A stretch of DNA of 64,000 nt, from NCBI RefSeq assembly GCF_011397635.1, contig NC_064769.1, positions 15,021,207 to 15,085,206 on the forward strand. The letters are read 5' to 3'. The notes beneath the pieces were generated by a model, which saw nothing but the letters and a program-made list of their open reading frames with translations, searched no databases and was not told the DNA's origin. Positions 7,645 to 61,600 of the stretch are shown here, in pieces (within the stretch, counting starts at the first letter, position 1; each line of letters starts with the position of its first letter). The translations under genes were made by a program, and so were the position numbers. This stretch comes from Epinephelus fuscoguttatus (Eukaryota; Chordata; Actinopteri; Perciformes; Serranidae).

Positions 7645-7721
7645 TTAAACACGGTGGATCTGCTGACACTGGACTCCTTGCTCACTCCTGACATCCAGTG
7701 TCAGCAGCCGGTGCTTTGAAG

Positions 7722-16103: not shown

Positions 16104-18746
16104 CTTTGAAAAAGAGAAAGGGTTGTTAAATGTCAGCTGTGGCCGCATAAGAAGATTAAGTTCAGCAAGGTTGAGTTTTTCTGTCATTGACCCCTTCACA
16201 AATCATTTCTCTCTACAATATCTCCCTGACACAAACTCTACGCATCCTTTAACCCATCTTACCGTGCCCTCAGGGTCCACCAACAGTAGGTGTTTGGCAA
16301 GTCCATTGTGCATGCCCGTCAGTACGTAGGACCCTGGGTTTGTCGTGCTCTTACGAACCAGGAAGTCCCCGTCTTCTTTCAGCAGTTTTTCAGCGTCACG
16401 GCGGCTCATTTTGCCATGGTACCACGGCTGGCCCTCCAGCTCCTCCTGTGCCCGGAAGGCCACTGAACGCACAAGAAGAGGACTCGAGTTGTCCACCGAT
16501 GCTGCCTTGTGAAGACTGGAGACCTGGGACTGGGTTTGCCCATGGGACAGTGGATGGGACTGCGACTGAATGGCATCCTCAAAAGGCTCTGGTATAGGTA
16601 AGGGCAGTGCCAAAATGATGAATTAAGAGAGGAAGGATATCTGTAGTATAATTTTTAAATCGGTATCTTACAGCCATCAAGACTTGTAAACTATGCTAAT
16701 CCATAAAATCAACTGCTAGTATGAAAACCTTAACATGTTTCTCAGAAACACAAGGTCATCATTTCTTTACCTTTCTTCATAATGGTAAAAATGTATATTT
16801 ATTTTTTTAGTCTGTCTGCACACTCAATTTTTATATCTGTATGCACATACAGTACATCTGTATACTTACACTGTACATCATATAATTTGTTAACTAATGC
16901 AGTGATATGCAGATGACACACTGTTGTATATAAGTAAACCTGACATTTTCACTTAAGGCCCGTTTCCACCGCAGGAACTTTGGGGTAATTTTACGGGGCC
17001 GGGGCCATTGGTGCATGTCTCCACCGCCTGAACCACCCCTGAAGGACAGAGTTCCAGAACTTTTACAGGGGCTAAACAAGTCCCTGCCTCGGAGTAGGTA
17101 CTCAGAACGGCCCCGAGAGACTCCTGGCTGGGGCTTGGGGATTACTTGGTGCTGACTGGATATACTCAAGGCGGGATGTGACGTTTTGTAATTACTATAT
17201 TTATTGTAGATTAGCTGGGCTAAACGTTAGCTGTTAGCCGTTAGCCATTAGCAGTGTCTGTAATAACTCAGTAACTCAATGTACGGTCCATGAAAAAAAA
17301 TTTTTTTCCAGCGGATATCTTAGTTACAACATGATTGAGCTAGCAAAGCAGTTTTGTGTTGCTATGTGTGGTATTTGTTCAGTTTTGGGAAATCACAAGC
17401 CTCCTGTTGTCGGATACGACATGAAACTACTCCAGTTAGCTCAATCATGTTGTAACTAAGACATCCGCTGGAAAAAATATTTTTTTCACGGACCGTTTAT
17501 TGAGTTATTGAGTTAATACAGACACCGCTAACGGCTAACAGCTAACTACGTCCCTACGCCCCTACTTCGCCCCGCTCAAAATGGTCATGCAACGATTACG
17601 TCACATCCAGAGCCCGGTAACTTTACAGGAACCTTCCTCCTACTCAGCCCTCTCAGTGGAGACACAGCAGTTGAGTGCCGGGCGACAGGACGTTCCTGTA
17701 GTAGTTCCTGCCCCCAAATAGTACCAGGAACTTCTTCAGTGGAAACGGGCCTTTAGTGTCTTGATTTGTTCTCTATGTTCATACATTGACTTTATATACC
17801 AAGTTAATATTATTCAGGGCCATGACATAGGGCAGGGTTAGAGTATGTTATAGCCTTTCCCAGCATGTACTGGGTTAGAGGCAGGGAGACATACTGGACA
17901 GGTGCCAGCCTTTTACAAAACTAACACAAGACATTCACTTTAACCTCACACCTACACAAAACTCAGCAGCTACCCTGACACTTAACAAGTGTGTAATGAG
18001 ATTAAATATCTTGGCCATTATATTGTCAGTGATTTCTCTGATGATAAAGATATCCATGGACAGTGTTGCAAGTTGTATGAGCAATGTAATATGCATGCTC
18101 GCAAATTCAGCATGTGTTCAGTTAATGTGAAGATAGCTCTTCTGTGAGCATTTTGTACCCTGCTGTATACTGCAAGGACTTAATGTGGCCTTTCATGATG
18201 GAATGAGAGTGCTTCACTTCCACAGTGGTGTAGTGCCAGCCAAATGTTTGTAAATGTTGTGCCTACCTGCCCTGCTTTAATACAAAATCATATATATCGA
18301 TATATGTGCAGGCTCTCTGTCTCAGAAAGGCTTTAGCCAACCCTGAGCTGAGCTCAGTCAGGATTTAATCGAGACTGGCTCTCCAGCTTGTTTGGGGGCG
18401 CATTCATTCATCTTCTAACCGCTTCATCCTCTTGAGGGTCGTGGGGGGGGCTGGAGCCTATCCCAGCTGACATCGGCCGAGAGGCAGGGTACACCCTGGA
18501 CAGTTCGCCAGACTATCACAGGGCTGACACATAGAGACAAACAACCATTCACACTCACATTCACACCTACGGACAATTTAGAGTTACCAATTAACCTAGT
18601 CCCCAGTCTGCATGTCTTTGGACTGTGGGAGGAAGCTGGAGTGCCCGGAGAGAACCCACACTGACACAGGGAGAACATGCAAACTCCACACAAAATTTGT
18701 CTTTTTGTATGAACACGCATAATGTAGTGTTGGGTATTTCTTGTCT

Positions 18747-34000: not shown

Positions 34001-36759
34001 AGCCTTGTATGCATTGCCTTCTACCTGTTTCAGCCAAAATCTTGGTTAAATGGCCAATTTCCACTGAATATGAACTTCCCCATGTCATCCAGGGTACAGT
34101 GACAGCTAGCTAGCAGACAACACCCCTGCCAGAAACAAAATATGAGTGAAGTTAGTTCCGCTATCTTGATCGGCATGACTTTATGTGAGAGGTAATTGGT
34201 AATTTTTTGTTTGTTTTTTTTTAAAGTAGAATTGTAGTAATAGATGTAACCAATTATTTTGAGATTTTATGATGCAACTTCAGAAATAAAATATTCCTAA
34301 AATCCTGCTTCCTATGTCTTAGCATTTTTAAGGCCTTAAACAGATTTATTTAAGATATTTTAATACCAATTAAAGCCTTAGTTTTAGATAAATTCATAGA
34401 TTCCTTTTAGAACTTTTTAATGATACACGGGAAACCTTATCCACATATAAAACATGGCTTAGTTTAACTCGAGTTAAAGACGTCAGAAAACTTCTTGTTG
34501 TTTCATAATGTGTACTGTTGTTACTTTAGAAATATTATATCATACAGTCCAGTTTGTTCAGTCTAGACAGAATATGTCAGGTCAAGAGGATAAAGCACTG
34601 AAATTTAATTAAGAGGCGAAATGAAGTAGGTTGTTGAACTGTATTAATAGATGTTGAATAACATGAAAAAATGTGCACCAAAAATGCAGGATAAACAGTC
34701 ATGGATGACAACACAGGCAGCAAATAATTAGAATATACTAACCACGGCAAATAGGATGCTGATAACAGTAATTAAAGCAGCTATAATATAACAAGGGATC
34801 ACATTGTGATAGGGGTCGCCAAGATCTGCAGTTCCTCTCAGCTCCATGGATCTTTATTGTGGTTTTTAGTTAAGTTTTAGCCATTTGTTGAGGACTTTTT
34901 TTTTTGCATAAACACACAGCGGCCGTGGGCTAAAAGTGTGAGCGTAAACAGTGTCACTGTCAATCAATGTCCCTTTAGAGTAATGGTGCATGATGCGCGC
35001 GGACTGACCACATGATGCTAATTAAAAGTGCTGTGAGCATAACACCACGTTGAACTCAATACACACAGGATCTCAAACCACAGGGAAAGCAGAGGGTGGG
35101 GGAGCACGGACTGGACCCATTTCCCCTCTCACAGTGTGGAAGCTTTCAGCAGCATTGACTGGACAAATAAGCGCTCCTGTCCTTAATGCAGTTAATGGAA
35201 TGTCACGCTGGTCACAGATACTGTAGGCTTTGTTCAGACAAGTTGTAGTAGGTGTCATATGATGGCAATCATACTGTGTAACTTGATTTGGAATATAACA
35301 GATTTCATCTTGCTCTTCTGTATGCTCATTCAGCCCTCCTAAAATCAAATGCTGCTTTTTGTATAATGTGCTGCATGAATAAAAAAGGAAGATGCACACT
35401 CTCCTGCTACGTTATGGTTCCAGTGAAAATGGTTTGCTCCATTTTTTCATTCACTTTACACCTTGGAGAGCCAGGGCTCAGCATCATCACTCCTCATGCT
35501 AGTGACTCATTGCCGGCATGATGACATTCATAGCTCTCGTAGTTGTGCGCCAACTTGTGCCCCTTTAAATGATGTATGATGGCCGAACGTTAACATGAGA
35601 CACGGATGAGACGAGACAAACATGCACTCTATGTCGATTTTTTGTCCTATTCCACCATTTCACTATCTGCAAGCTAAAACAGCTGTAGAGCTCACGGAGA
35701 TGCACAATGTACAGAAATAACACATCACCATGGTTACAAAAGCATAACGCTGTGGCTCCACATATACCAGACGGACTGTATGAATTAAAATGTTTACATG
35801 ACACTGATAATTGCTGTTTTTGTTTTCCCATCACAGGTTTTTCCTCTGCTTTTCTCAAATGCTGACCTTCTCTATTTCCTGAATTATTCAATGTCTTTTT
35901 TCTGGTCACTGCTCCTTCACTCAGCCTTCTGCTGTAGCCAACCTACATACACCCACTCAAGGGCATGTTGTGATGTGCCAATGAAACTACATTATCTCTC
36001 CTTTATCGCCCTCCTCCTTGCAGGTAGCTGAGCTTGAGTCATTGAAAGAAAAGAGAGAATGGGAAAAGATTTGGGAGAAGACAAAAACAGAAGTGAGACA
36101 GAGAGACCACCAACCTTCACAATGTATGTCACTCCTGGACCAGAGATCTTCTCACTTGAGTGTAGCCATCCTCTGGAGGGTTTGCTCACCAGTCCACCAC
36201 CTCCACCTGGATTCCAGTCCTCTCCACCGGGCTGGAGCTCGTCCAGCCGGCTCTTCTTGCTCATGCTGACGGCTGGCTCCAGCTGCGAGCAGGGGGTTGA
36301 ATGGGAGGCCGAGCTGCACAGAGAGCCGCCCACACCAGAGGCTGCTGCCGCTGTTGCTGCTGCTGTCGCCGCGCTGGGGCTCGGGCCACTGGAGCTGCCT
36401 GAGCCCGATCCCCCACCCCCCTGCAGCTTAGACACAGCCAGGTCCTTGACAGCCGAGGGCAGACCCTTGATGCCCAGCAGGCTGCCTGAGTTGCTGAATT
36501 TCAGGCTGGACACCTTGTTGATGAGGGTGCAGAGGGTGGTGCCTCCATCTTCCAGGTGGTCAGAGCCGTGGCTGGTGGGGGTGCTGGAAGCGGTGGTGGT
36601 GGAGGAGGGCTGGACCTCAGTCGGGGGTGTGTAAGATGTCTCGGCTGCAGACTGGGGGGTGGCCGAGACCTTGGGGTTCATGGAAAGGCCGTGGAGAAGC
36701 TCATCGACGGATGTTACTGACTCATTCCTGAAGCGGTTGTATTTGGTACGGTGAAGCAT
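15975..36759 (-). CDS. shc3: SHC-transforming protein 3 (N-Shc), 12-exon gene
   Basis: Phosphotyrosine adaptor that links activated receptor tyrosine kinases to Grb2/Ras, mainly in neurons. Exons on the minus strand: 36759-36115, 30769-30699, 26279-26216, 23642-23523, 22385-22332, 21002-20951, 20861-20732, 20631-20478, 20363-20270, 20155-19964, 16588-16263, 16103-15975. They sum to 2031 nt, 676 aa plus stop, with all splice phases compatible. Order of domains: long N-terminal CH2 region starting [10 protein letters not shown] (residues 1-200, with Gly/Ser and Ala runs); PTB domain about 200-378; CH1 with YYN and YVN Grb2-type sites, ending in a DLFDMKPFEDA motif; C-terminal SH2 about 581-671 with FLVRK at 601-605. 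The motifs [17 protein letters not shown] and RKSTTNPGS favour SHC3 over SHC1, 2 or 4. The gene converges on s1pr3, as in human 9q22. UTRs and alternative promoters are not resolved. Confidence 0.95.
16263..16588 (-). CDS. shc3: shc3 exon 11: CH1 end and most of the SH2 domain
   Basis: 326 nt. Starts by completing KPFEDA, runs through a Ser/Gln-rich linker with KAASVD, then SH2 from [17 protein letters not shown] holds the conserved phosphate-binding Arg604. Ends LLLVDPEGT in phase 0. Acceptor CTATACCAG, donor CACG|GTAAGA. Confidence 0.95.
16956..17752. mobile_element. PIF/Harbinger-like MITE with nested inverted arms
   Basis: Ends AGGCCCGTTTCCACC and CAGTGGAAACGGGCCT, flanked on both sides by TTA, the usual Harbinger target duplication. 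Nested arms at about 17220-17345 and 17437-17545 are near-perfect reverse complements (CAATCATGTTGTAACTAAG). Lies in the last intron but one of shc3. ORFs inside are chance. Confidence 0.85.
17985..18260 (+). pseudogene. Fossil of non-LTR retrotransposon reverse transcriptase (thumb region)
   Basis: The plus-strand frame reads [20 protein letters not shown], then [15 protein letters not shown], resembling the YLGHxI...DDxDI...ARKF...S region of fish LINE reverse transcriptases, and is broken by TGA and TAA. No intact enzyme. Lies in an shc3 intron. Confidence 0.6.
18395..18700. repeat. Common teleost interspersed repeat (LINE 3' region type)
   Basis: Contains GGCTGGAGCCTATCCCAGCT, TACACCCTGGACA, CATTCACACCTACGG and GGAGAACATGCAAACTCCAC, phrases that recur across fish genomes. 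It follows the reverse-transcriptase fossil at 17985 and may be its 3' part. Confidence 0.65.
18751..18782. repeat. (TA)n microsatellite
   Basis: About 16 TA units, then TTATATCTT. Confidence 0.95.
18989..19021. repeat. (TTGA)n tetranucleotide repeat
   Basis: About eight TTGA/GATT units in a row. Confidence 0.95.
19964..20155 (-). CDS. shc3: shc3 exon 10: CH1 region with YVN motif
   Basis: 192 nt. Contains [10 protein letters not shown], the second Grb2-type site (YVN), then an Ala/Glu-rich stretch and DLFDM, the adaptin-binding-like motif before SH2. Donor ATGA|GTAAGT. Confidence 0.93.
20270..20363 (-). CDS. shc3: shc3 exon 9: CH1 region
   Basis: 94 nt encoding [20 protein letters not shown] and a further 11 residues. 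TYYQGRH resembles the SHC3-specific CH1 segment. Acceptor ATGTCATCAG, donor CAGG|GTGAGA, exits in phase 1. Confidence 0.9.
20478..20631 (-). CDS. shc3: shc3 exon 8: CH1 region with YYN motif
   Basis: 154 nt. Contains an acidic run ([12 protein letters not shown]) directly before [14 protein letters not shown], the tandem-tyrosine YYN site that recruits the Grb2 SH2 domain once phosphorylated. Acceptor TTTTCCCTCAG, donor CAG|GTACAA. Confidence 0.94.
20732..20861 (-). CDS. shc3: shc3 exon 7: end of PTB domain
   Basis: 130 nt encoding the [16 protein letters not shown] segment and the C-terminal PTB helix ([15 protein letters not shown]). The long open frame visible at this place is a different frame; the real frame is fixed by the phases of both neighbouring exons. 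Acceptor CTCATCAG, donor GACAG|GTGAGG. Confidence 0.94.
20951..21002 (-). CDS. shc3: shc3 exon 6: PTB domain
   Basis: 52 nt encoding [17 protein letters not shown]. Acceptor GTCTTTAG, donor AGAG|GTGGGT, phase 0 in and phase 1 out. Confidence 0.94.
21260..21710. repeat. Interspersed repeat, copy 1 of a three-copy local family
   Basis: Shares ordered blocks with 45075-45480 and 48480-48675: AGTGGAATTACAACT, TTTCATCCCCATTCAAGTT, CTGCTCTATGGGCCCAA. No coding frame. In shc3 intron 5. Confidence 0.75.
22332..22385 (-). CDS. shc3: shc3 exon 5: PTB domain
   Basis: 54 nt encoding [18 protein letters not shown], nearly invariant across Shc proteins. Acceptor TTGACAG, donor CCCC|GTAAGT, phase 0. Confidence 0.95.
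23523..23642 (-). CDS. shc3: shc3 exon 4: PTB domain
   Basis: 120 nt encoding [20 protein letters not shown] through NLMTPDCKQ. The [10 protein letters not shown] variant is typical of SHC3. Donor CAAACAG|GTCAAT; phase 0 at both ends. Confidence 0.94.
23735..24985. mobile_element. Foldback repeat with GCTTAGCATAAAG arms
   Basis: The block AATATGAAGCTA...GCTTAGCATAAAGACTGGAAACAGG (23846-23900) is repeated in reverse at 24900-24975 (CTTGTTTCCAGGCTTTATGC...TAGCTTCATATT). This is a very common teleost repeat motif. Lies in shc3 intron 3, which otherwise shows nothing. Confidence 0.7.
25950..25984. repeat. (CT)n-rich microsatellite
   Basis: A CT run inside a longer pyrimidine-rich stretch (25915-26035). 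Confidence 0.9.
26216..26279 (-). CDS. shc3: shc3 exon 3: PTB domain
   Basis: 64 nt encoding [21 protein letters not shown]. The acceptor follows a CT-rich tract (GTCTCTAG); donor AAAG|GTACAT; exits in phase 0. The matching open frame on the plus strand is only a shadow. Confidence 0.94.
26355..26670. repeat. MITE fragment related to 10436-11034
   Basis: Starts TTAAAGGTCCAGTATGTAGGA; shares CAACATGGCG...CTC and GCCGATTCTTATTTTCAGATGATTAT with the other copy in the same order. The right end is not clear. In shc3 intron 2. Confidence 0.6.
26671..29870 (-). other. shc3: shc3 intron 2, non-repeat part
   Basis: AT-rich with no exon, RNA gene or recognised repeat that I can support. ORFs here are short and without family likeness. 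Confidence 0.7.
29871..30322. mobile_element. MITE with GGGTTTCCATCC-type ends
   Basis: The left end TGGGTTTCCATCCA and right end GGTGGGTGGAAACTAACC pair imperfectly. No ORF. In shc3 intron 2. Confidence 0.55.
30699..30769 (-). CDS. shc3: shc3 exon 2: PTB domain
   Basis: 71 nt encoding [11 protein letters not shown] and the following [10 protein letters not shown], a highly conserved Shc PTB stretch. Acceptor TTTGCTTTCCAG, donor AAG|GTATGT, exits in phase 2. Confidence 0.94.
30923..30956. repeat. Perfect 34-bp palindrome
   Basis: Arms of 17 bp, TTTCCCTCTCTGGGATT and its exact complement, with no loop. In shc3 intron 1, 154 bases upstream of exon 2. Confidence 0.95.
30974..31066. repeat. Inverted repeat, 17-bp perfect arms
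   Basis: CAAATCAGGGACTTGCT at 30974-30990 and its exact complement at 31050-31066, loop of 59 bases. Looks like a very small MITE. Confidence 0.85.
31067..33600 (-). other. shc3: shc3 intron 1, left part
   Basis: No exon seen. 31495-31860 reads like a dispersed fish repeat (AAAGCTGTAGTTGGTAAC start). A (CA)n run lies at 33227-33246. Confidence 0.6.
33690..33795 (+). repeat. 3' tail of a non-LTR retrotransposon
   Basis: Contains CTACCTTGGCCAGGTCTCTC and TTAATGGGACTTCCTGGTTA, then a TAAA tandem tail. Such a tail is typical of fish LINE 3' ends. Confidence 0.7.
33796..36114 (-). other. shc3: shc3 intron 1, right part
   Basis: No exon or RNA gene recognised; AT-rich, chance ORFs on both strands. 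Confidence 0.65.
36115..36759 (-). CDS. shc3: shc3 exon 1: start codon, CH2 region, first PTB residues
   Basis: Encodes residues 1-215. The ATG at 36759 gives the Shc3-type start [12 protein letters not shown]; an upstream in-frame ATG at 36804 adds 15 residues of no family likeness and is not preferred. Low-complexity runs: Gly/Ser around 114-124 and Ala around 130-140. Met166 (36264) sits where shorter Shc isoforms start in mammals. The exon ends in [11 protein letters not shown], the first PTB strand, in phase 0. The donor is AAG|GTTGGT, weaker than consensus. Confidence 0.92.
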
Positions 36760-36968
36760 ACCCTTCTCTCTCTTGCTCTCTCCCCTCTCTCCACCAACCG
36801 ACACGCACAGCCTGCCTCTTTCACAAGTGTGCTGGCAGACGTGGCTGAGCCGTGCTGATTACCCTCTCCTGTAACATAGCAGCAGCGGTACAGGCAGCAA
36901 ACGCCTTTTAGCAATCACAGGCCACCTGACTGTAATTTTCTCTATTGAGGTTACAGTGGTGGTTGTGT

Positions 36969-48675: not shown

Positions 48676-51600
48676 CCTCTTATACCTCGATCTGCCAAAA
48701 CACTAAAATCACTGGCGAGTGAAGGGAGTATCATCATTTTATTACACTGCAATGTTCTGCTGGGAAACCTCAGGTCCTGCCATTGATGTGGATGCCACTT
48801 CATGTGCCCCACCCACACAGGTACCCTAGCAGACCAAGTACCCTCCCTTATAGCAACAGCACTCTGCTATGGCAATTGCCCCCCCCCCGTAGGACAATGC
48901 ACCACGCCATGATCTATGCTCTTAACACTACAATCCCCCCAAAATAGGACATTTCTGCAATTCATTAACAAACTTTATATAAAATAATTTTGAAAAATCT
49001 TTAGAGACATAAAGCAACAGGTCGATATGACTTTTATATTATTTTACATAGACTAGCTACACAAAAAGACGTCAAAACAGTATAATTTGAAAATGTTAGC
49101 ATAATTACTCACCTGTGAACTGATTAACGTTATCTTGACGCGAGATTCTGGTCACATGAGCTAAATTATCCAATGACAGCCTTTGTGCAATTTAAAGTAA
49201 AAAGCTAATCGAGTTGTCACTTCTGTTGAAGACTTTATCTGAAAATATGTCTGGCAACTAATTATATTCGGACAGGTATAATGACGACTACTATGAGTAC
49301 AGGTGAGCAGCTGTGTCACTAATACCATTGACTTTCTTGCTGCAAACATGGCTGCTAAACAGATGTACATTTGCCAAAACAACCTCTTAGTCTTCAACTT
49401 TGAAGCCTTGTTTTTTTGAAGGACGGGAAAAAAATAGAAACACTTCTTATAAAGCATAAATTTTACCTTTGAGTCGCTTGGTCGCTTATCTTAGTTTGTT
49501 GACAAGAATGAAACAGGCTCATTGCGGCCATTGCTAGGTAAAACCTCTACTACAGCTGCGGTCACCACCTGTCAGTGCCAGTGTGTTTCCCGCCCTCAGG
49601 GGGCAGTAATGAGCCTATTAGTACACCAGTGTGAGTCGAAGAAGACGTCGCACTGCATAACTCTCTTGGGCAAGCGACACAAAGATGAGATTTGTGCTTT
49701 ATCAGACCTGTTTTCAAACGGCGTATTTCTGTTTTTAAGAGTCAAGACTTCAAGGATGAAATTTGACTGGTTGGTTTGGTGAATGTACTTCCGGTTAACC
49801 GCCCGACCTCCATTAAAGACCGGAGCACAGCTGCTTCCCTATGGTGCTTCTATATTAGATGCTAATAAAGCATCTCTAACCATTTCGCTTTCCAGGGGAG
49901 CATTTCTCATATTGACAGAACCTGTAAAATTAACCTATCTGACAAACTAAAGAGGATAGCGAGCCATGCACCGCTGCATCTAGTAAACCAATTAAATTGC
50001 CAACTTCGTCAAGTCAGTTAAATAAGAAAAGAGAGATGTAGAGAACACACTACCACACTTACTAGTCATTTTCTAATCATAACTGTTTGTGATTTTTAAG
50101 GTATGGAATTAGTACTGTTCCTGTATGCATATTTAGCTGACCACTATTAGTGCAGCTGTTATAATTTTTGTTAAGGCTGTATACCTCACAGCATGCTGAC
50201 TTAAACCTGCCATCAAAGTCTAAATATAGTCATTTATTTATTTATAATTTAAAATTTTATTTATTTTATTTATTTATGTATCATTTATTTTAATTAGGCC
50301 TACCAGGCATGTTGTTCTGCCTAGGAAAATGGAAAATAGGGAAATATATTCCATGAGTGCATTTGAAATCTGGGAGTGCAGTAGTCCCAAGGATGGATCC
50401 ACAACATAAGGCATGACTCATGTACTGTAGGTAATAACTCTTATAGGCCCCACATACACCATTAGCTTTCAGCATACAAAATGCGCTGCTGGTTTGTTTT
50501 AAAACAATGTTCATGATTGAACTAGCAAATTAACTGTGCAAAATTAGCTGTATTTTCTCAGCATAGAAGCTAGTTTGTATAAAGATCTTAGATCCTACTC
50601 ATCCTGCTGCTATCAAACAACACTACGTCCCAAAGTGCCTCAATTATCTTAAAAAAAAAAAGGAAGATATTTCTGTTTCTGACCTATAATGGGTGACAGG
50701 GATTTGCATTAGGTTCACAACACTGATTTCTTACATTCAGTAGGAAGAGAACTGTCTTGTGACATCATGCCAGAATCAGCAAGTTGGCCTTGTGATACTG
50801 CTGTTGTGTGGCCAGAAATAAACCAGTTAAACCAGTATTCGGCAGTACCTTTTGAAAAAAGCACCTAATTTACATAACAATGTGTAAATAACTTTGCTGC
50901 CATGACTTTGAGTCATGACGGAAGTAATAAACAAAGAACTATCTTCTTTTTTTTTTGCTTGTGCTCCTTTACTTAGTCACACGAGGGCGCTATAGCTCAA
51001 GTTTTTGGTAAAGCCATGAACAATATAAAGGCATTACAATGCAATACTGAGCTTCAGAAACTTTTTTTTTTCCTCAGTTGCAGTTTTGTTATACAATAAA
51101 TATCTTAATTTTGACATTAGGTTGAACTTTTTTCTCATTATTCCAAGTTGCATTAAAGATAGAATATTAAATAACCATTCCTCTATGAACATATGAGGCC
51201 TAAGCATCTCAGATGAAGTCTACAACCTACATCTAGAAAGGAAATAAGCTGTCAGTTAAGGACATCGTACCCTCTGAAAATATCATAACTGGCTTCCAAG
51301 AAGAAATGCTCGGCAGAGGTCGGTTAATAATTCAGATGGTAGAAAGTGTTCTGGTGTAAAAGGCTGACATGGCACTGTGCCACTCTGGTTTTGATCCTGC
51401 AGGGGTAATAACTTGTTTATAAATGGGTCAAACAGGTCTGTGAATATTTAATCTATCACCTGATGTAAAAATATAAACATGCATTATTCACACATGGCAA
51501 AAATGTGATGCACTTTTCCTTAAGTCAATGTAAGCAACAGATAAACTCCATTTATTTGTGCTTCAAAAGCAAGTAGGTAGTTTTAATGTGAACAAAAACT

Positions 51601-52379
51601 AACTGCAGACAGCAGCAGTGAGGTACAGACTGTAAAAATCCAAGCTATGCCAAGGATGGCATTTTGGACGCTGGGGTTTCAAGCTGAATTTCACTCCTGG
51701 TGATATGATCTTGCTTAATGTCAAACATCAGAGGTATACTGTCATTGGAAAGAACTCTGCTTCCCACAGTAACCTTCTTCAATCCGGCAATCGAAATCCT
51801 GTGACTAAACTCGGGCTTTGACTCTCTGGAAGGAAAAAAATAAATGCCCAATAAATATTAAAGACACTGTATAATCTCAAGTGAAAATGTCAAACTGCAA
51901 GTATAGCTCTGAAGGACCGTACTGAGGCTTTAGAAGGCAGCAACGGAGCACACATCTGAGACCTCTGTGAAAATAACTATAAACAGGCCACAGATGCTCC
52001 ATCACTTACAAATTCAGATCAGTGCTCCTCATACACCATCAGTTTTATTGTTCCATACAAGCACTGCTTTCAGGATGTTCATTTTCATCAATAAAAATAG
52101 AAATTAATGCATGTTTAGAAGACAGGCAGCCCATGTGTCCTCAGACCGATGACCCTCATCTCCTCGTCAGTTTTTGGAAGGAGTCCCAACACCATCATCA
52201 CAGCCAGGTGAGCCCCCTCTGCAGAAGGCAGGTGCTGTGAATTCTTTGCTGCACGCTCCATCAAGCTTCTCCGTAAGAAGTGACACTGAGACATCGTATT
52301 CCGTCTGTTTATGATAGTCTCAGTGTCAAAAGGTGTGGTTCAGCCAACACAAGTGAAGCTCATGATGTCTTAAGAGGGC
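48676..52379. other. Intergenic, downstream of sema4d
   Basis: No gene supported. The right part may be 3' UTR of the alternative sema4d transcript. A minus-strand ORF at 51838-51645 follows a good acceptor but does not fit the exon chain in phase. Confidence 0.55.
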
Positions 52380-52400
52380 TCAGTGGCCGTCACAGCTTTC
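52380..52400 (-). CDS. sema4d: Alternative sema4d exon D: last six codons and stop
   Basis: Acceptor TTCCTTCCACAG, then ESCDGH and TGA. 3' UTR would follow; an AATAAA on the minus strand at 52049-52044 is a candidate poly(A) signal. The short length makes this the least certain exon of the chain. Confidence 0.45.
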   Translation of the reverse strand, partial: ESCDGH

Positions 52401-55400
52401 CTGTGGAAGGAAAAACAGAGTTGTACTGTGCAACTAGGGGAGGATAGACACATGAAGTGTTAAGGATTGATCTGTAGTGTGCTAAAATCTCACCAAATAC
52501 ACTTAGATGCTTTCAGTCACTATCAGAAATGCAAATTATTTTTAAATGTTGATAACAGAGGTTAAAGTAGCCTGCTTCTAGACCTCTGAATCTGCCACCA
52601 CATCTAAGATTTTACCAGTAATTCAAAATATAATGAAAAATGTATCTGAATAGCTTAAGTTAAAGGGACATTTCAGCCCAAAATTAAAAAAATACTTATT
52701 TTTCCTTTCACCTGTAGTGTTATTTATCAGTCTAGATTGTTTTGGTGTGAGTTGCAGAGTGTTGGAGATGTCAGCCATAGAGATGTCTGCCTTCTCTCAA
52801 ATATAATGGAACTAGATGGCACTCATGTGTAACCCGGTCATGATTTCTGGAAAAAGACATAATTGAGAGGAGGCAGACGTCTCTATTGCTGATATCTCCA
52901 ACACTCAGGGACTCGCACCTAAACAATCTAGACTGATAAACAGCACTAAATGTAAGATGGAAAAAAATGGAAGAATATTTTTGGGGTGAAAGTGTCCCTT
53001 TAAGCTAGTTTACCACTTGGAAACTGCTTTGCAGGGAGGGAGCTTGCATTGCAGTAGTAGATCTGCATTCAAATGAAACAAAGAGAGACTGGATCTGAGT
53101 CTGTAAACTAAAACCAGTGTTATTGTAGCTATTGTCCTCACTGTTTGCCCTGCATCTCTCTCTGCATCTGTCTCTTTATGCATCATTTGGTCATGTGGAT
53201 CACTGTAAATTATTTATGTTGATCTGTTCTGCACACACGAAATCTGTTGCACGTCTGTCCGTCCTGGAAGAGGGATCCCTCTTCAGTTGCTCTTCCTGAA
53301 ATTTCTACCTTTCTACATATACATACAATTGAATTGAACTGAACTGAATTAAACTTTTATGCATGTTTCTCCAGGCCTTTACAGCTACAGGTACAGATGG
53401 ATGACGAAACATTATAACTATGGAGACAGAATCCCCTTTAATGTTTAAGTTATAGAAAATAAAATCTAAATAGAAAAAAACACGATAATTAATTGTGAAT
53501 TAAAATCTACTGTAGATTGATCTAATGATGACCTGCTCCCCTTAAGACATTCAATATTTTAGTCAGAAGCCTTGTGAGATATTAGTAATCTTTAGTTATC
53601 TGTAACACAGTTAGCTGGATATGGTTAATAGATCATGTTGAACACAAAATGTAGTTAAATGTAATTGCAGTTAACAAAAAAGCTGCAGGAACAGCTGGTA
53701 ATTTAGTGTAGTAACTCTGATAAACACCTTATTCAGACCGTAGAAAACACTGTTAAGTAAAGATCATCTGGAAAACAAACTGGCACTGAGGGTTCAAACC
53801 ACTCGCCTACAGCCAAACATGCAGAGCAGGTTAAAACTGGTGCCCATGATGTAAGTCTACCCAGGCGACTGCACAATAACTATTATAAAGTTGTGAGAAA
53901 ACACACTCACATGCACGAACACAGACCTACCCAGGCCTTTTCCCATCTCTTTAGCAGTTGTTCGTGCTCTGTGAGCGCACCTCTCCACTGGTTCAAATCC
54001 CTGGTAGGAATGCTCTCCTCATCTGTCAAATAACAACGTCTTTTACTGAAATAATGGCAACTAATCCCAGGCACTGTATTAACCCTCTACATGCATTACT
54101 CAAAGTATATCTCACATTGGAGACATAATAGGTTTCAATACTGAAAATACTTATTGTCAAGGTAGATGTGTCCATAAAGTTCTACACACATTTTCAGAGC
54201 CATACAAGCATCACGTGCAGATACCTCCAATAGTGAGGTGAAGGTCAATCTCAGATATGTCATTTCCTGTGCTGGCCTCTGCGACACAGTGGTAACGAGC
54301 GTCCTTGATCAGCGGCCCCTCTCGGAGCCAGCTGCTCACTAGAACCTCCCTCTGACCCAGCGGCAGGCGGTACTCCATTATGGGGGTGTCCAGAGTGTGC
54401 CCGTTTATTAGCCAGTGAATGTGGACATCACTGGGACCTGAGGGACAGAACAGGACTTCATGTTGACCCCCCCGATGGTCACATAGACGTACTGTACATG
54501 AGATAGGAATACTTGCCTGAGATCCATTTGTGGAGTTCGAGTTTCAGCAATAAGCTCTAGAGGCGACTAAATAAACATGCAGTGTACAAGTGTGCATAAT
54601 GTCTGATCTCAGCTGTTATTCAGTGCATCTTCTACAAGGTGGAGTTGCTGATGAAGCCAGATTTACTGAGCGGTGCATTAGGGCTGCAACTAACAATTAT
54701 TTTCATTGTCGACTAATCTGTCGATTATTTCTTCGATTAGTCGACTAATCATTTTATCGAAAAATGTGTTGGAAAGTTGAAAAATGTCAGTCTGTCTCTC
54801 TCAAACCCGAAAATTATGTCATCTAATATCTTGTCTCGTACTCACGAGAGGTTAGTAGTTCACCATCATGGGAGAGTGTGTAATGCTGCCAATATGTAAG
54901 AAGCTGCAATAAGAGTACTTTGGGGTTCTTTTATAGTACTTTTCTATAAAAAATGACTCAAACCGATTAGTTGACTACTAAAACAGTCAACGATTATTTT
55001 AATAGTCGATTAGTCATTGATTAGTCAACTAATTGTTGCAGCCTTTGTAAGATTACCAATTTTTAAACTTTTTTTTTTTGCATATGTTTTCAGTATTTGC
55101 CAGATGTGGGACCAACTCATTGTTTTCTAAGTCACAACAAATAAGTCTCAAGTCTTTGCACTTATGTCCCAAGTCAAGACAGGCAAGTTCCGAGTTAGCC
55201 CCAAGTCCTCATCTTTGGGTTTCGAGTCCAAAACAAGTCATAATGCACTCTTCACTGAATGTAATGTCATTTTAACAAAAGAATAAGATATGAAATTTGC
55301 AAAAATCATGCATACTTTAACTTAGTACATTTTTTGTTTAATAAGGGTGACTGAACTTAAACATAAAAAAGTGGAAGGTATCAAGTATTTTCAAATCAAA

Positions 55401-58400
55401 AAGCTCAAGTCCAAGTGAAGTCACGAGTCATTGGTGTGGTGCAAGCTGAGTTGCAAGGCTTTTTTTGGTCACAGTCATCAAATTTGTGACTCAAGTGTGA
55501 CTTGAGTCCACACCTCCGGTATTTTGCAACAGGATCCTCAACTTTCCGTCACATACAGTAGCTTTTTTTATTGTCCCTTTCGCTGTTATCCTCACTACGT
55601 AATGATGATGACTGGAGTCAAACATTTAAGAAAACAAACCAGTGTTGAAAACATTTGACAAGATTTATTTAGCCTCCCTACCAAGAGCAATAGTCCCAAA
55701 ATGTCCCCTAGATTTATGTACATCTTCAAATGGTATTTTTCCCAAATATACAAATATATTTACACTTGTTTACAGGCACAAAAAATGATCCAGATAAAGT
55801 ATTGAGATGTAAGACATTTGAGCTTACAGTAACACCCTGGATAAAAAAAAAGGACCCACTTCGAAATTTTACATGTTTCACGTCAGACCGCTGTTACATA
55901 ATACTATACACAAAACTGTACCTTTCATTACATAGAATTGAGAACTGTGAGACCACCGAGAGGTCGACAGTTCAATATCGAAACTTATCTTTTTAAACAT
56001 TCACTCATTAAGGTATCTTATGTGACACCTAAAACGGAGATGAACAGTTCTCCATGAGTCAGACGCCTTGAAGCAAAGCAGGCTTGTTTTAGACACACAC
56101 ACACACACACACACACACTCCCGGTTAGTTCATGTTGGGAAATGGTAACATGCAACATGCAGAGAGGAGAGAGTGAAAAAGGGGAAGGTTAAAAAGTGAG
56201 AAGGAATCGATTTCCAGTTCAGGAGCTGAGTCACAGACACCACTCACCCAAGGCGAGACAGAAGAGCAGGAAGGCCTCCTGGGCGTGAACCCCCCAGGCC
56301 TGGTCCTTCAGCAGGGGAGGCAACAGTCTCACCTCTGCCTCCCGCGCCCCGACACTGTGGGGCTTGGCGGAGGAAGAGGTGGAAGAAGAGGAAGAGGAGG
56401 AAGGGAGGGCAGAGGGAGTTCCAGAGGACAGGGAAGATGAAGTGTCGACAGGAGAGGAGGCTGTGAGGGAGGGAGTGATGGGAAAAGAGAGTATTGAGGA
56501 AAATGGGAAATCTAAAGAAGGGGCAACATGCAACACAGAAAAGAGGGAGACTAATGGACTTAAAAAAAAAAATAACCTACTGCAATAAATAAAACAAATG
56601 AAGATGATAACAATTACTTACACAATAGACAAAATGATATTTCCACAAATGTGACTCATCTTAAATAATAATCCTCTGAAAATGTTCTACAACTGAAGGT
56701 TTGATTAAAAATAATGATAAAAAAGATTGTTTCCAGGGCTGTTTCAGAAAAAACTTGATGATTGATACCAAGCATCACGTCATACCGCACATATTTCCGT
56801 TATTAATAGACAACGTAAGGGAAGATGACTAGTACAGGTTAATACACAGGACCATCAGAGTTGTATCCATATAGGAATGTCGACTTTACAGGAAGGAAAG
56901 CAAAATTAAATACAGACAAAGTCAACACTGTCACTCAAAGACGACTCTACACGAGACAGTGGTTTGATTTATTCCAGCATTTTTCTAATCATGCAAGTCG
57001 TTGCTTGTCCCCTTCTCTTTCCGTGACCTTCAAACCCCACATCGCCACCTCGCTGGGTGAGATTAAGGCCCACATACCAGGTGGTGCAGATGGCAACACT
57101 GCACAAAGCTAGGCTAGAACGTACTGAGCAAATCTTCCCTGAGAAATTACTGTAACGTTGAAGCATTCACCCAAAGTCCAATAGCTGACACGTTGCTTTG
57201 AAATAAGATAAGCTTCAAGAGATTATTTTTAACCCAGGCTGTACAAAAAAACACGACTCCAATTTGGAAAACATCAAGGTAACTTACCAATTTGGTAAAC
57301 AATGTTTCCAATTTGGAATTTAAGAAATAGCTTTTCTTGCTGGACTAAGCTGAGAGGGTGCAGCTTCTGTGAATATAGTTTTTTGCTTTATCATCATAAG
57401 CCAGAAATCAGACAACAGGAGATAAATCTCTACAGGCAAGCGGGACGCCTGATTTAAGCTTTGTGATGATTATTATGTGATGCTGTACACTGAACATACT
57501 TTCATATAGAGGAAACCATTTACTTGTGAGTCGTGGGAAGATGCAGCAAGAGTGTGACCCCCCCCATAAATAGTCTCTATGTTGAGAAGAACGAGCAGAT
57601 CAGAGGCGTCTGGCTAGCAGTAAGGCTCGTCTGCATCTGCAAACTGAATGGGCTGAGATTCACAGTCCACATCGAAGGGTTTCTCCTGGGACGGGCTGTC
57701 GTCTCCGAAAGTGTGAGAGGGGATCCCGCCGTTGCCACACTCCGGCTCAGTCTCGTACCCGGTGTCGCGGAGCGCCCGGAGGTTCTGAGTGGTCTGGCTG
57801 CCATTCTGCGTCGGCTGCTCCGTCATGTTAATTTTGTCAGTTGCGGATGCTTCCATCAGACCTGCCTCACAGGCCAGGTACTCGGGCTGATGGGCGCTCT
57901 TGTGACTGCCCAACAGAGCGGCTCGCACCCGCAGGCATGGAGCTGGAAGATACTGCATGTAGCAGTTGTACGCCAACGCAGCCAGGAAGAGGAGGAAAAA
58001 CAGGAGGAAGAGGAAGAGGAGGGCGGTGCTGTTGTTGTGTTGCAAATACTCAGCCGCTGGGTCCCTGCTGTCTGGGCGGGGAGCGTTGGAGCTTGAGGGA
58101 AGGTGCGGCTTTGGTTGGAACTTGATTGTGCTGCTGGGTGGCGGGGTTAGTGATGAGTCAGTTTGGGGTGGGGAGGTGAATTGGACTGTGGCTGTGAAGC
58201 TGGGAGGGGCGAGGGCCGACGTTAGTAGGGCTCTGTCTGTCTTACCATTACCTTCAGCTGCGTGTGTGCTAGACGGCTCCCGGCTGCCGAGGGTGGTGGT
58301 CACGTGGCCCGCCTGGTGAGGGGCTCTGGGCGGCAGATCCAGAGTCAGGACGTATCCAGCCAGGAGGCGGCTGAAGTTCTTTCCAGCGGCGGGGGCCCAT

Positions 58401-58623
58401 TCCACTGACCAGCACTCGTAGTGACCTTGATCCTCTGGAGCCACGCTGTAAATAAGGAGACCATTTTCACCTATGAGGTGGAAGCGAGAGGCCTCGGTGA
58501 GAGCAGAGCCGTTGGATTTCCACATCACCTGGGCCAGATTGGAGTGCACCAGGCACGGCAGCTCAGCGGAGCTCCCTAGTTTCACTGAGACACGCTGGTA
58601 GTCCTTCAAAGACAGACGTGACG
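52380..58623 (-). CDS. sema4d: Predicted alternative 3' end of sema4d encoding a secreted, two-Ig isoform
   Basis: Inference from splice sites and phase. Chain: 58623-58252 (or -58246), 56460-56248, 54437-54225, 54022-53931, 52400-52380. From the first donor the added sequence is 539 nt, and with the one donor-side base it makes exactly 180 codons including TGA. The tail has a Ser-rich linker (SSPVDTSSSLSSGTP), an Ig-like domain (EVRLLPPLLKDQAW, C...HIHW...YHCVAEA), a charged helix-like segment (HEQLLKRWEKAW) and ends ESCDGH. There is no hydrophobic anchor, so the product would be soluble. These exons could instead be the 3' part of another minus-strand gene, but no start exon was found between 56460 and 57614. 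Confidence 0.62.
52660..53002. mobile_element. Palindromic (foldback) MITE, TTAAAGGGACA ends
   Basis: The left arm TTAAAGGGACATTTCAGCCC...ATCAGTCTAGATTGTTT is matched in reverse by AAACAATCTAGACTGAT...AAAGTGTCCCTTTAA. Arms about 150 bp each. A single-arm relative is at 63490 to the window end. Confidence 0.85.
53140..53300. repeat. Recurrent fish repeat segment
   Basis: Holds GTTGCACGTCTGTCCGTCCT and GAAGAGGGATCCCTCTTCAG, phrases I recognise as multi-copy in teleosts. The second is itself a palindrome. Confidence 0.5.
53931..54022 (-). CDS. sema4d: Alternative sema4d exon C: charged helical segment
   Basis: 92 nt, phase 1 in, phase 0 out. Encodes EESIPTRDLNQWRGALTEHE then QLLKRWEKAW. Acceptor TTATTTGACAG, donor TGG|GTAGGT. 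No domain recognised; likely a short amphipathic helix. Confidence 0.55.
54225..54437 (-). CDS. sema4d: Alternative sema4d exon B: core of second Ig domain
   Basis: 213 nt, phase 1 in and out. Encodes PSDVHIHWLINGHTL, YRLPLGQREVLVSSWLREG, RYHCVAEAS and IDLHLTIG. The Trp of HIHW and the Cys of YHC fit Ig core positions. Acceptor CTGTCCCTCAG, donor GGAG|GTATCT. The continuous frame with Ig-fold spacing is the best evidence that these exons are real. Confidence 0.68.
54679..55046. mobile_element. hAT-like MITE, AGGGCTGCAACTAAC ends
   Basis: Left GGGCTGCAACTAACAATTAT with TCGACTAATC repeats; right GACTAATCG-type repeats and AACTAATTGTTGCAGCC. No ORF. Sits between alternative sema4d exons A and B. 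Confidence 0.8.
55085..55520. repeat. CAAGTC-rich repeat element
   Basis: Many GACTCAAGT/AAGTCTCAAGTC motifs between ATGTGGGACCAACTCATTG and GACTTGAGTCCACACCTC. A common fish DNA-element type. ORF at 55078 is chance. Confidence 0.65.
56094..56118. repeat. (CA)n microsatellite
   Basis: About 12 AC units, close to alternative sema4d exon A. Confidence 0.95.
56248..56460 (-). CDS. sema4d: Alternative sema4d exon A: Ser-rich linker and start of second Ig domain
   Basis: 213 nt, phase 1 in and phase 1 out. Acceptor CTCCCTCACAG, strong donor TTGG|GTGAGT. Encodes a poly-Ser linker, then EVRLLPPLLKDQAWGVHAQE and LLFCLALG, an Ig B-strand with its cysteine. A second donor (GAG|GTGAGA) exists inside but breaks the phase to the next exon. 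Confidence 0.62.
56461..57613 (-). other. sema4d: 3' UTR of canonical sema4d transcript and flank
   Basis: No coding exon seen. An AATAAA on the minus strand at 56973-56968 is a candidate poly(A) signal for the membrane form. For the alternative form this is intron. Confidence 0.5.
57614..58623 (-). CDS. sema4d: sema4d canonical last exon: Ig, stalk, transmembrane, cytoplasmic tail
   Basis: 1010 nt, 336 codons including TAG after a split first codon. Numbering from that split Ala: Ig cysteines 24 and 71 with Trp35; stalk about 95-198 rich in Ser/Thr/Pro; TM about 199-221; juxtamembrane [10 protein letters not shown]; tail ending FADADEPYC. Within the stalk lie two tandem donors in phase 1 (exon ends 58252 and 58246) that would remove the TM and tail. 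Acceptor TTTTGTAG. Confidence 0.94.
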
Positions 58624-61600
58624 CTACAAAACAGAGAGGAAATAATGACTTTTGGGCAGTTAAAGTTTGGCCTGAAAACACACCATAATCAGTGTCTACT
58701 AAGCACTGACATTGCCCACTTTTTCCTTTCATTGTCCATGTTATAAAGCGTCTTTATTAAGCTGTATATGAGCGTGTTGAACCTTACCTGAGGGACACTT
58801 GTCTGCGTCACCATTCAGGCTCTGGATTAGCTTCCTGGAAAAACAAACAAGCTTTATTTTCATGGCGATCTAAAATATGCAAACACTTTGAAATGAGCGT
58901 GAGACAGTCAGGTCAAACAGGATGGCCTATCAGTAAAGATGTCACTCCACGGTGGTTTTGCTTTCGCTAGCCAGTGTGATAATGCATGAGTGGAGCACCG
59001 GTATGTAGAAAAGCTTGATAGTGAGTTACCTAAGCCGTTGGCTGGGAGCGTCAAAGATATTGACACAGGCAGCAGTGTGAGGGTCCCAGGCGCAGTACGG
59101 GTCTCGAGCCAGGACACAGTCGGCGCAGGACAGATAGCGGCCGCAGAAGGCTGTGGGGGACTGGACTACACCCGAGTCTGAACCAGCGTACAGGGAGCGT
59201 GTCTGTGGAAGCACAAGGTTGTTAACATGACAAAAACAAAAGAAATACACTTACAGATCACTTTGGAATTTTACTCAGTTCCCAAAGATGAACCCTTAAT
59301 CATATACAAGTCTACAAATAACTTAAAAAAAATTTAAATCAGCAAATTGCCATCTGCAGAAGCTGTAATGCGAACTCCAGATAACCACAAACACACCACA
59401 GTAGAGATAAACGTGTTGTCTCATCTGCTGTTTGTGCTTTTTAACAGTCATGCCATCTTTCTTGTAACTTACTATCGTAAGCTTTTTCACAGCAGAGTGA
59501 GCACATCAGAAAAACATGCAAAGACACTTGCAAATGTGCGTGAGGGTAAATAACAAAACACCTCTGTGGAAAATACCACACAGTCAGCAGCACCACAAAC
59601 TAAATCCTCCAAAATAATCACACAGTTGAATCAACACCTCTCTTAAACACTTAAAATAAAACTACAAACACAGACACACTGCCTGTCTGGGTGCAGTTTG
59701 TATCTGCTGAGCTCAAAACACATTTTCTATTGAGCCACAGTGTCTCTTTAAACAGTTACTAACAGAGTAAAGTCACTGACCTCAGAGGACAGCAGCAAGT
59801 TCTTGATGGACTCAGAGTTCTTCAGGAGCTGGACCTCCTCCACAATGTGCACGTCTCCTTCATACACCACCGACTTGTGCAGGACTCCCTTATCTGAAAG
59901 GTGAGAATGGTAAAATGACATTTAGTCGAGAGAGAAGCTAGAAATGGGCCTCTTCAAAACAAAAGATTACAACACGGGATGTACTGAGTGATCCGTCCAC
60001 ACAGCCGAATGTCATCAGCTTCTGATCAGCTTCTTTCCCTTGTTTGTTTACCCACATCATTCTCCATCTATGCCAGCTGTCATTGGCGGTGTAAACAGAC
60101 GCACTACTGCCAGGTGTTAAGCGGCAGGCAGCTTGATGCAGCAGTTCTCCTAACACTTGCCTTGTTTTTCTTATTTTGTTTATGCAGCACTTTATGCAGG
60201 CTTGTTTGCCCTATATATAAATTTATTTATTTGCATCTTTTTTGGAGACAGTTTCTATTTTTTTACTCCATTATTTTAGTTTTACAAACAAATTTAATTA
60301 TTTATGAGGGATATGGATCAATAAAGATTTGTTGTAGCCATGTTTTGCTGTTGAGACATGGCTTTTAAAAAGTGTACAATTATTTTGAACTGTAACATTA
60401 AAACTGTCCATCGGCCACTTTCTATCTCTTCATTTCCAGAGTTTGACACCTTTAAACGCAACTTGTATTATGAAAAGGCAGCTCCTCTGAGAGGATTTGT
60501 GATTTACATTTAATGCGTTTTTATTTGTTTGAATATTTACAGTATCTTTAAATATCGTCTACTTTGTAATTTAATTTAAAAAAAAAAAAAACCATATAAA
60601 ACAGTTGTGATGCAGGCAGCTTTTTTTGTAACACAAAGCTCTTTAATTACATACATCAAGAACTGCTGACTAGAATAAATATTACATGGGGGCACTATAT
60701 CTGCACACCAGTGCTATAAGATCAGCATCAGGAGCTAATTAACTTGATGAGGACAGCCTTATTTGTAACAGTATCAATTTCAAATTTTTCTAAGTAGTAA
60801 AAGTAAATGGTAAAAAGTCACAACATCTTCGACTTTACATACTGTAAAATAAACAAATGTTGGACTAAAATTAATCATAATAGAGGTGAATTACACTATG
60901 GGAGAGCATTTTAAAAGTATGTACTGAACAGATCACCGACTAATTCATAAAAATAATGTATGGTTGATAAACTCTTCTTAATATTTACATGTTCCAGAGA
61001 CTGCAATAAAATAATAAAATCTATTTAATAAACATTTAAACAGGAGGATAACTTGGATTAATAACTGACGTGTTGTTACCTGTTCCAGTGAAGATGACAT
61101 CATAAATGTTCTTGTCAAGCGCGCGGACCCTCTCCACGACAATCTGAGTGTAATTGACGTCTTTGGTGATGAGGCGAGGCCCGTTGCCGATGGGCAGGAC
61201 GGGATCCTCCAGCAAGGGGTGGTCCTTAACAAACTGGAGGGTCTTGTCTGGCAGGTGGAGAGAGCTGCTGATGTTCTGCTGTCGCATCTGGTTGTTAATA
61301 CACTGAAGGCAGACAGGAGACATCAAATAATTATTGGAAAGTATGTTCACATCCAATTTATTCATTTTCTTTCATATCCTGGCTAAATAAAGCATTTCCT
61401 GGTCTCGGACTACACAAAACATTTACACTGAGCTCAGTCCTAATCATTGGAGCTGCCTTAAAGTGCACTTACTGCTCCAGGACGTGGAGAAGGAGTCATG
61501 CCGTTGTATCGCACCCACTTGGTGTGGGACTGCTCCACTGTGGCCTTCTGCATGTACTTGCCCTTGGAGAAGACCTCTTCCACAGCTGTCATGTTGTAAG

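Follow-up and report, generated by a model that had tools for sequence, protein, structure and literature searches.

An alternative 3' end of sema4d in Epinephelus fuscoguttatus, shared with other fish and mammals, predicts a semaphorin 4D without membrane span and with a second Ig-like domain

Introduction

Soluble SEMA4D in patients is read as the shed ectodomain, and for human Sema4D a Cys in the stalk has been reported. Soluble SEMA4D is raised in rheumatoid arthritis serum, according to a passage of PMC6016892, and the regulated shedding of semaphorin 4D in platelets is the subject of a title cited in PMC8957939. Among other semaphorins, Sema3A is a disulfide-linked dimer through a Cys of its C-terminal tail, and Sema2a and Sema2b are disulfide-linked dimers as well, the class 2 disulfide lying in the sema domain (as stated in a section of PMC6695400).

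An alternative ending of Sema4D is already catalogued in mouse, in other mammals and in many fish. We take the transcript NM_001142287.1 to be the human form with this tail. It appears as a SEMA4D transcript in a primer table (Table 2 of PMC11595178), an excerpt of PMC8921602 gives primers for a mouse Sema4d splice event, and 13 predicted splice variants of Sema4D are mentioned in part of PMC6016892.

In this study, we analyse a stretch of 64,000 nucleotides of Epinephelus fuscoguttatus (the window), in which a preliminary description had proposed an alternative 3' end of sema4d for a form that has a second Ig domain and no membrane anchor. We report that comparison with fish and mammalian proteins supports this reading, and we give the features of the predicted product and the two splice routes that may lead to it.

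Results

The canonical gene and the alternative exon chain

The upstream sema4d exons of the window (Table 1) encode part of the sema domain and PSI. The sema part is identical to the Acanthochromis model P0013 at 281 of 292 residues, and P0013 matches the SEMA4D structure 1olz at E 1.9e-234. The canonical last coding exon closes with TAG at 57616-57614 (-); its membrane and cytoplasmic part shares 78% identity with Chanos P0092, and the membrane span reaches a hydropathy of 2.9 (19-residue mean, Kyte-Doolittle). No Cys is found in the canonical stalk of the window or of Chanos, the two fish stalks examined.

Table 1. Features of sema4d in the window, in window coordinates
Feature	Position	Strand	Length	Basis
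Upstream sema4d exons	62762-62611, 61914-61739, 61629-61473, 61302-61080	(-)		AG/GT borders and open frame
Upstream sema4d exons, continued	59893-59781, 59202-59030, 58834-58788	(-)		AG/GT borders and open frame
Canonical last coding exon: Ig1, stalk, membrane span, cytoplasmic tail	57614..58623	(-)
Tandem 5' splice sites in canonical last exon, 6 nt apart	58252/58251 and 58246/58245	(-)
AATAAA, candidate polyadenylation signal of canonical transcript	56968..56973	(-)		hexamer scan
Alternative exon 1: Ser-rich linker and start of Ig2 including B-strand Cys	56248..56460	(-)	213 nt
Alternative exon 2: remainder of Ig2, core Trp and F-strand Cys	54225..54437	(-)	213 nt
Alternative exon 3: predicted helix, three conserved Trp	53931..54022	(-)	92 nt
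Alternative exon 4, coding part: ESCDGH and stop TGA, conserved terminal Cys	52380..52400	(-)	21 nt
AATAAA, candidate polyadenylation signal of alternative transcript	52044..52049	(-)		hexamer scan

Four minus-strand exons past the canonical stop had been proposed to form one open chain, entered in phase from a donor inside the canonical last exon, and the sequence bears this out. Each exon is preceded by AG and followed by GT, except that exon 4 ends in TGA instead, and the frame, which follows the sema and PSI parts of sema4d, stays open to this stop. Two internal donors fit, 58252 (AAG/gtaatg) and 58246 (ATG/gtaaga); they share a frame, their products differ by Gly-Asn, and from either the count of new residues is 179, as had been described. 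The tail holds the expected Ig-type residues, with Cys 68 and Cys 122 (tail numbering) on either side of a Trp, and a third Cys at 176. It also lacks a membrane anchor, as predicted, its highest 19-residue hydropathy mean being 1.5 as against 2.9 for the canonical span (Kyte-Doolittle). One AATAAA, at 56973, follows the canonical stop and precedes alternative exon 1, and another, at 52049, lies about 330 nt past the alternative TGA; as candidate polyadenylation signals the two lend weak support, because a scan found ten hexamers AATAAA or ATTAAA within 51500-58700.

Homologous tails in fish and mammals

Protein searches with the tail, as the preliminary description had suggested, found matches among fish and mammalian Sema4D. 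We found 101 annotated Sema4D models that close with this tail, every one named as from a ray-finned fish, and the fish consensus tail retrieved Acipenser (sturgeon) at 51% and Zalophus (sea lion) at 42% (E 2e-26). With the Zalophus tail as query, 190 of 1614 candidates matched at E up to 0.001; among the 120 matches listed, 112 are named, all of them mammals, and they include mouse "isoform 3" and "isoform 4 precursor", rat, pig and gorilla. In a single comparison, the tails of sea lion P0106 and the sturgeon two-Ig protein P0104 share 48% over 178 residues (E 1e-49). P0106 and fish P0013 share 55% over 716 residues, tail included, and the window tail is 36-41% identical to four mammalian tails. 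Since fish and mammals both have homologues of the tail, the chain is more than a product of chance. The comparisons of P0106 with P0104 and P0013 also settle that the mammalian isoform with a different C-terminus, which the earlier authors had mentioned, is homologous to the window tail; their term "hidden" has to be dropped, as annotations of this 3' end already exist for numerous fish and mammals.

The fish entries are for the most part computational gene models that draw on each other. Many fish models lack the very short last exon, 38 of 107 aligned fish rows being gapped at the terminal Cys.

The four exons might instead form a downstream gene apart from sema4d, starting on its own and encoding an Ig protein. 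They lie beyond 56973, where the canonical transcript has its candidate polyadenylation signal, and stretch over a few kilobases, and short stand-alone tail proteins would fall outside our protein searches, which admitted candidates of 0.55 to 1.75 times query length. Against such a gene, precomputed Pfam assignments give sema and PSI for every listed fish, sturgeon, sea lion and mammal row, so that all 225 proteins retrieved, each of which matches the tail profile, are also listed with both domains. Moreover, the first exon starts in the middle of the linker with a phase-1 acceptor that suits the sema4d donors, and the fused frame is present on short contigs: eight entries (P0168, P0177, P0185, P0186, P0191, P0199, P0200, P0201) each hold the whole frame of 726-745 residues, on contigs that at their longest reach 3.1-4.1 kb and are probably cDNA-derived. 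We regard a separate gene as extremely improbable.

Two splice routes into the tail

The tail can be reached in one phase in two ways, through the internal donors (Ig1 and Ig2) or by skipping the canonical last exon (Ig2 only). Exon 58834-58788 ends in phase 1 and can therefore join either 58623, as in the canonical transcript, or 56460 directly, where the acceptor is also in phase 1. Both routes are found in fish and in mammals. For Labrus mixtus both tandem-donor products are modelled (P0001 and P0002, identical except for GN), and the skip form is modelled in Acanthochromis (P0013). We scored the presence of Ig1 by simple patterns, as we did the selection of two-Ig proteins (70 of 105 fish-query and 6 of 120 other proteins). 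Ig1 is kept in 61 of 68 full-length fish tails and missing from seven; among the matches listed for the mammal query, 6 of 111 full-length tails keep it, 103 do not, mouse isoforms 3 and 4 being among these, and 2 are unclassed. The extra Ig domain of the preliminary description thus holds for the internal-donor route, which adds Ig2, and fails for the skip route, which swaps Ig1 for Ig2.

The main alternative product in this species could be the skip form, a variant of the reading proposed here in which Ig2 replaces Ig1. The shared phase at 58788 and 56460, the prevalence of tails without Ig1 among the listed mammal-query matches and the existence of P0013 speak for it; the majority of fish tails, which keep Ig1, and the fact that six of the seven fish tails without it are UniRef-only models speak against it. 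We consider this variant rather unlikely, though a serious contender.

Ig2 and the C-terminal segment

Profile searches detected Ig2 unevenly. On the tail alone Pfam I-set (PF07679) scored 12.6 bits, below its cut-off of 23.7 bits; exon 54437-54225 alone matched no Pfam family at 0.1, and P0013, a one-Ig fish model, gave no Ig by Pfam at 0.01. Precomputed Pfam assignments place I-set in some one-Ig mammal models (P0107, P0148, P0151). When the tail profile was compared with the PDB, the best matches were Ig proteins (60 of 2006 matches listed); the match to titin, E 1.5e-17, is a whole-chain figure that sums five repeats, and the best single stretch among the matches listed is in LAR (0.0013).

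A class 3 origin of Ig2 was also considered and is unsupported by the PDB matches listed, Sema3A being absent among these 60 of 2006.

A structure model of P0013, built with 30 of the 225 proteins as input, places seven strands between residues 625 and 716 (block pLDDT 63-90); its mean pLDDT of 59 is poor overall, with fair values for Ig2 and low ones for the helix. Foldseek with this model ranked semaphorins and plexins first, a ranking that by itself says nothing on Ig2, because the aligned residues were not given. Judged by the conserved Cys-Trp-Cys and the modelled beta-sandwich strands, the tail segment is an Ig-like domain. Behind it the tail closes with a stretch rich in Trp and a single conserved Cys, through which a covalent dimer could form.

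Conservation of the tail

Segment-wise protein conservation served as measure of constraint on the tail. Ig2 with the C-terminal segment shows roughly the same degree of conservation as Ig1, in fish, in mammals and across the two groups; for Ig2 and Ig1, identities are 75% vs 76% between fish and 38% vs 34% between fish and mammals. Between the window and Epinephelus lanceolatus P0004, 95 of 98 residues of Ig1 and 99 of 99 of Ig2 are identical. In ungapped rows the B-strand Cys is present in 96/96 fish and 120/120 mammal-query proteins, the core Trp and the F-strand Cys in 100/100 and 120/120, and the terminal Cys in 67/69 and 111/112, the mammal-query counts being those among the matches listed.

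In single comparisons over greater distances Ig2 falls somewhat behind Ig1 in identity: 64/99 vs 71/98 in Esox P0069, 55/99 vs 68/96 in Anguilla P0084 and 60% vs 73% in Chanos.

These figures bear on the possibility that the isoform is rare splicing noise without a protein role and that soluble Sema4D comes from shedding only. Shedding is documented (title cited in PMC8957939), and the open-access literature searched yielded no study of the isoform's function, secretion or dimerisation. Noise would decay, however, and the tail, with its nearly invariant hallmark Cys and Trp, has been kept about as well as Ig1; we judge this explanation improbable.

Discussion

Taken as a whole, the evidence is best explained by a real and old alternative 3' end of sema4d that lacks the membrane span, and we hold this with high confidence. 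We propose for the canonical last exon the role of a composite terminal exon. Its cleavage and polyadenylation, with 56973 as candidate signal, would give the membrane protein; use of the internal donor 58252 or 58246, or skipping of the canonical last exon from 58788, would lead on to the four alternative exons and to a transcript that ends close to 52049, the other candidate signal. Its product would keep sema and PSI and carry Ig1 and Ig2 by the donor route or Ig2 alone by the skip route. Because the membrane span is absent it should be secreted without shedding, and nonsense-mediated decay is not expected, since the stop codon is in the final exon. The exon chain, its frame, its homology to annotated fish and mammalian isoforms and its conservation come directly from the sequences, and the splicing choice, the expression in this species and the secretion are what we infer.

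The terminal Cys may further make a disulfide dimer, taking the place of the stalk Cys of human Sema4D. More tentatively, and with less than even confidence, we suggest that a dedicated secreted Sema4D made by splicing has been kept in bony vertebrates beside the membrane form, dimerised by the conserved C-terminal Cys behind a Trp-rich helix, that in fish like this one it is the covalent Sema4D dimer, given the lack of Cys in the two canonical fish stalks examined (window and Chanos), and that part of the soluble blood SEMA4D now ascribed to shedding is this protein. If true, soluble SEMA4D would have a further origin outside sheddase control, in a conserved splice form that is secreted, has another Ig domain and may bind or dimerise differently.

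Among the closest known systems is the alternative isoform of mammalian SEMA4D (mouse isoform 3, P0214, and isoform 4, P0213; the 738-residue gorilla P0176), whose tail is alignable with that of the window along its length. Sema, PSI, the Ser/Pro-rich linker, Ig2, the Trp-rich segment and the WESC end are shared. The mammalian isoform differs in that the models listed mostly skip the whole canonical last exon and have one Ig, and in an extra Cys of Ig2 (ETC) that is absent in the window. Among teleosts, the isoform X models of semaphorin-4D, for example X5 of Epinephelus lanceolatus and X2 and X4 of Labrus mixtus, have the same tail and the same tandem-donor products; in E. lanceolatus, the nearest relative, the last exon differs from that of the window, as its model P0004 ends in WVGKL instead of WESCDGH.

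The semaphorins of class 3 in vertebrates and class 2 in the fly are likewise secreted sema-PSI-Ig proteins; unlike these, the form predicted here would arise by splicing of a class 4 gene. In Ig heavy chains, polyadenylation versus splicing at a composite terminal exon decides between anchor and secretion. The proposed switch in sema4d would resemble it in this competition, with the order reversed: in sema4d the membrane form would come from the proximal end and the secreted form from the distal one.

Results

Reading frame and surroundings of the alternative 3' end

The exon chain of a predicted alternative 3' end of sema4d is confirmed in the window. The four minus-strand exons that the preliminary description had placed 3' of the canonical stop agree in their coordinates with the sequence and with a scripted check, and internal exon borders of sema4d are AG/GT throughout. 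An in-phase join to the canonical last exon at an internal donor, as proposed, was likewise reproduced: the frame is open via 58252 or 58246 to a TGA ending at 52380, and its translation yields a tail of the predicted 179 residues. This tail carries Cys at positions 68, 122 and 176 and no N-glycosylation sequon; a scan of it revealed no membrane-span-like stretch, in line with the claimed lack of a membrane anchor. Transcripts with the stop codon in the last exon are not expected to decay; since the TGA lies there, the alternative transcript should be spared. Candidate polyadenylation hexamers at 56973 and 52049 suit the canonical and the alternative end, respectively, although the 7.2 kb scanned contain ten hexamers of this type.

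Features in and around sema4d (window positions)
Feature	Position	Strand	Remarks
Seven upstream sema4d exons	62762 to 58788	-	sequence and scripted frame check
Canonical last exon	58623 to TAG at 57616-57614	-	sequence and scripted frame check
Alternative exons 1-4	56460-56248, 54437-54225, 54022-53931, 52400-52380	-	sequence and scripted check
Inverted repeat, intron of alternative end	52656-53003		109-nt arms 52696-52804/52859-52967, 83% complementary
Inverted repeat, intron of alternative end	54736-55033		16-nt ends 54736-54751/55018-55033, 94% complementary
Intronless 391-residue frame	7692-8867	+	rhodopsin-type 7tm_1, E 1.3e-41
SH2 domain exon	16203-16622	-	E 2.1e-15
Ser-rich open frame	35992-36858	-	no Pfam match

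The two intronic inverted repeats look like small mobile elements. The intronless frame presumably encodes a sphingosine-1-phosphate receptor, whose gene is a neighbour of SEMA4D in mammals. Between it and sema4d lie the SH2 exon and the Ser-rich frame, which together resemble an SHC-type adaptor gene, probably shc3.

Homologues of the tail

Sequence comparison indicates that the alternative end is more than chance. A query of residues 505-651 from the joined translation (E up to 0.001) matched 101 of 286 candidates, all ray-finned fish by name and most called semaphorin-4D. Epinephelus lanceolatus (P0004) was 100% identical across 96% of the query region, which points to a grouper or close relative as the probable source of the window. 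A consensus fish tail (106/288 candidates, E up to 10) newly reached Acipenser (51% identity) and Zalophus, a sea lion (42%, E 2e-26), whose tail served as the next query and matched 190 of 1614 candidates; among the 120 matches listed, 112 carry names, every one mammalian (carnivores, ungulates, bats, rodents, primates and others), including mouse semaphorin-4D isoform 3 and isoform 4 precursor. These protein searches admit candidates of 0.55 to 1.75 times the query length, and short stand-alone tail proteins fall outside. Homology to the mammalian alternative C-terminus, previously left unconfirmed, is settled by pairwise alignments running through the entire tail (sturgeon/sea lion, fish/sea lion) and by 24 invariant columns in a ten-sequence alignment.

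Each of the 225 proteins retrieved matches a profile of the tail, as does the window; of the 226 sequences, 180 do so at full length (68 from the fish queries and 111 from the mammal query, besides the window). Residues were counted in 107 fish and 121 mammal-query aligned rows, a few proteins contributing two. In ungapped rows the B-strand Cys is kept in 96/96 fish and 120/120 mammal-query rows, both the core Trp and the F-strand Cys in 100/100 and 120/120, and the terminal Cys in 67/69 and 111/112, this last position being gapped in 38 fish and 9 mammal-query rows.

Ig-like domain of the tail

Pfam I-set scored 12.6 bits on the tail alone, under the cut-off of 23.7, and a Pfam scan of the Acanthochromis protein P0013 at 0.01 gave no Ig match. 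A profile of ten tails searched against PDB had Ig proteins as top matches; the top E-value (titin, 1.5e-17) is a sum over five repeats; among the single stretches shown, LAR scored best at 0.0013. In the AlphaFold2 model of P0013 seven strands lie within 625-716 (block pLDDT 63-90; the rest of the model is poor). Because profile matches, modelled strands and the invariant Cys, Trp and Cys combine, an Ig-like domain, as originally proposed, is the fair reading.

Mean pairwise identities of the Ig domain of the canonical last exon (Ig1) and of that encoded by alternative exons 1-2 (Ig2) are similar: 75.7% and 74.6% in a set of 70 two-Ig fish proteins to which the window was added, 85% and 80% among six two-Ig mammals, and 34% and 38% between fish and mammals. 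Ig2 is therefore conserved about as tightly as Ig1, although single distant comparisons favour Ig2 less than the group means do: the window shares 71/98 (Ig1) and 64/99 (Ig2) residues with Esox, 68/96 and 55/99 with Anguilla, and 48/96 and 45/98 with sturgeon. Against Chanos, identity is 60% in Ig2, 73% in Ig1, 78% in the membrane-plus-cytoplasmic part and 89% in the sema part.

Two routes to the tail

The tail can be reached from either of two donors, 6 nt apart, inside the canonical last exon; Labrus mixtus models cover both products, differing solely by Gly-Asn. Mammalian two-Ig models have their join at an apparently equivalent position (QTE/ASSP in squirrel P0160, compared with AAE/ASSP in the window). 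Alternatively, the whole canonical last exon may be skipped, 58788 and 56460 both being phase 1. This product is modelled in P0013 and in most mammals among the matches listed, both mouse isoforms included. By a simple sequence pattern, Ig1 is present in 61 and absent from 7 of 68 full-length fish tails, and present in 6, absent from 103 and unclassed in 2 of 111 mammal-query tails. Four fish models (P0098, P0099, P0100, P0101) end shortly past the first alternative exon (LALGEW.. or LALGKL), predicting Ig1 plus a mere fragment of Ig2. One 1071-residue Chanos chanos model (P0092) has both the canonical membrane and cytoplasmic regions and, fused to them, the alternative tail; it is probably a prediction error.

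Transcript evidence

Eight entries with source code lgn among the sea lion-tail matches listed have whole frames of 726-745 residues, on contigs of 3.1-4.1 kb at the longest. These are most likely cDNA-derived, since the exons of the gene spread over >10 kb even in the fish window. Short contigs of this kind were not seen in the fish rows of two fish-tail protein searches. We take NM_001142287.1 to be the human form with the alternative tail. This accession is given as a SEMA4D transcript in a primer table of PMC11595178, and PMC8921602 describes primers that target a splice event of mouse Sema4d.

Discussion

The interpretation as a predicted secreted isoform with a second Ig domain is supported and extended by these comparisons. 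The isoform is already in public annotation and hence not new; full-text searches of open-access papers turned up no study of its function.

At its C-terminal end the tail has a Trp-rich segment, modelled at low confidence as a helix (AlphaFold2, residues 730-754 of P0013), followed by a conserved lone Cys. According to PMC6695400, human Sema4D dimerises via a Cys of the linker that connects its Ig domain to the membrane, and Sema3A via a Cys of its C-terminal tail. In the two canonical stalks inspected, of the window and Chanos, no Cys is found. A disulfide dimer via the terminal Cys of the tail is thus a fair guess by analogy.

We propose that the canonical last exon acts as a composite terminal exon. 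Polyadenylation there would give the membrane form; use of an internal donor, or skipping of the exon, would give the secreted form. The immunoglobulin heavy-chain switch makes a similar choice, but in sema4d the order would be reversed.
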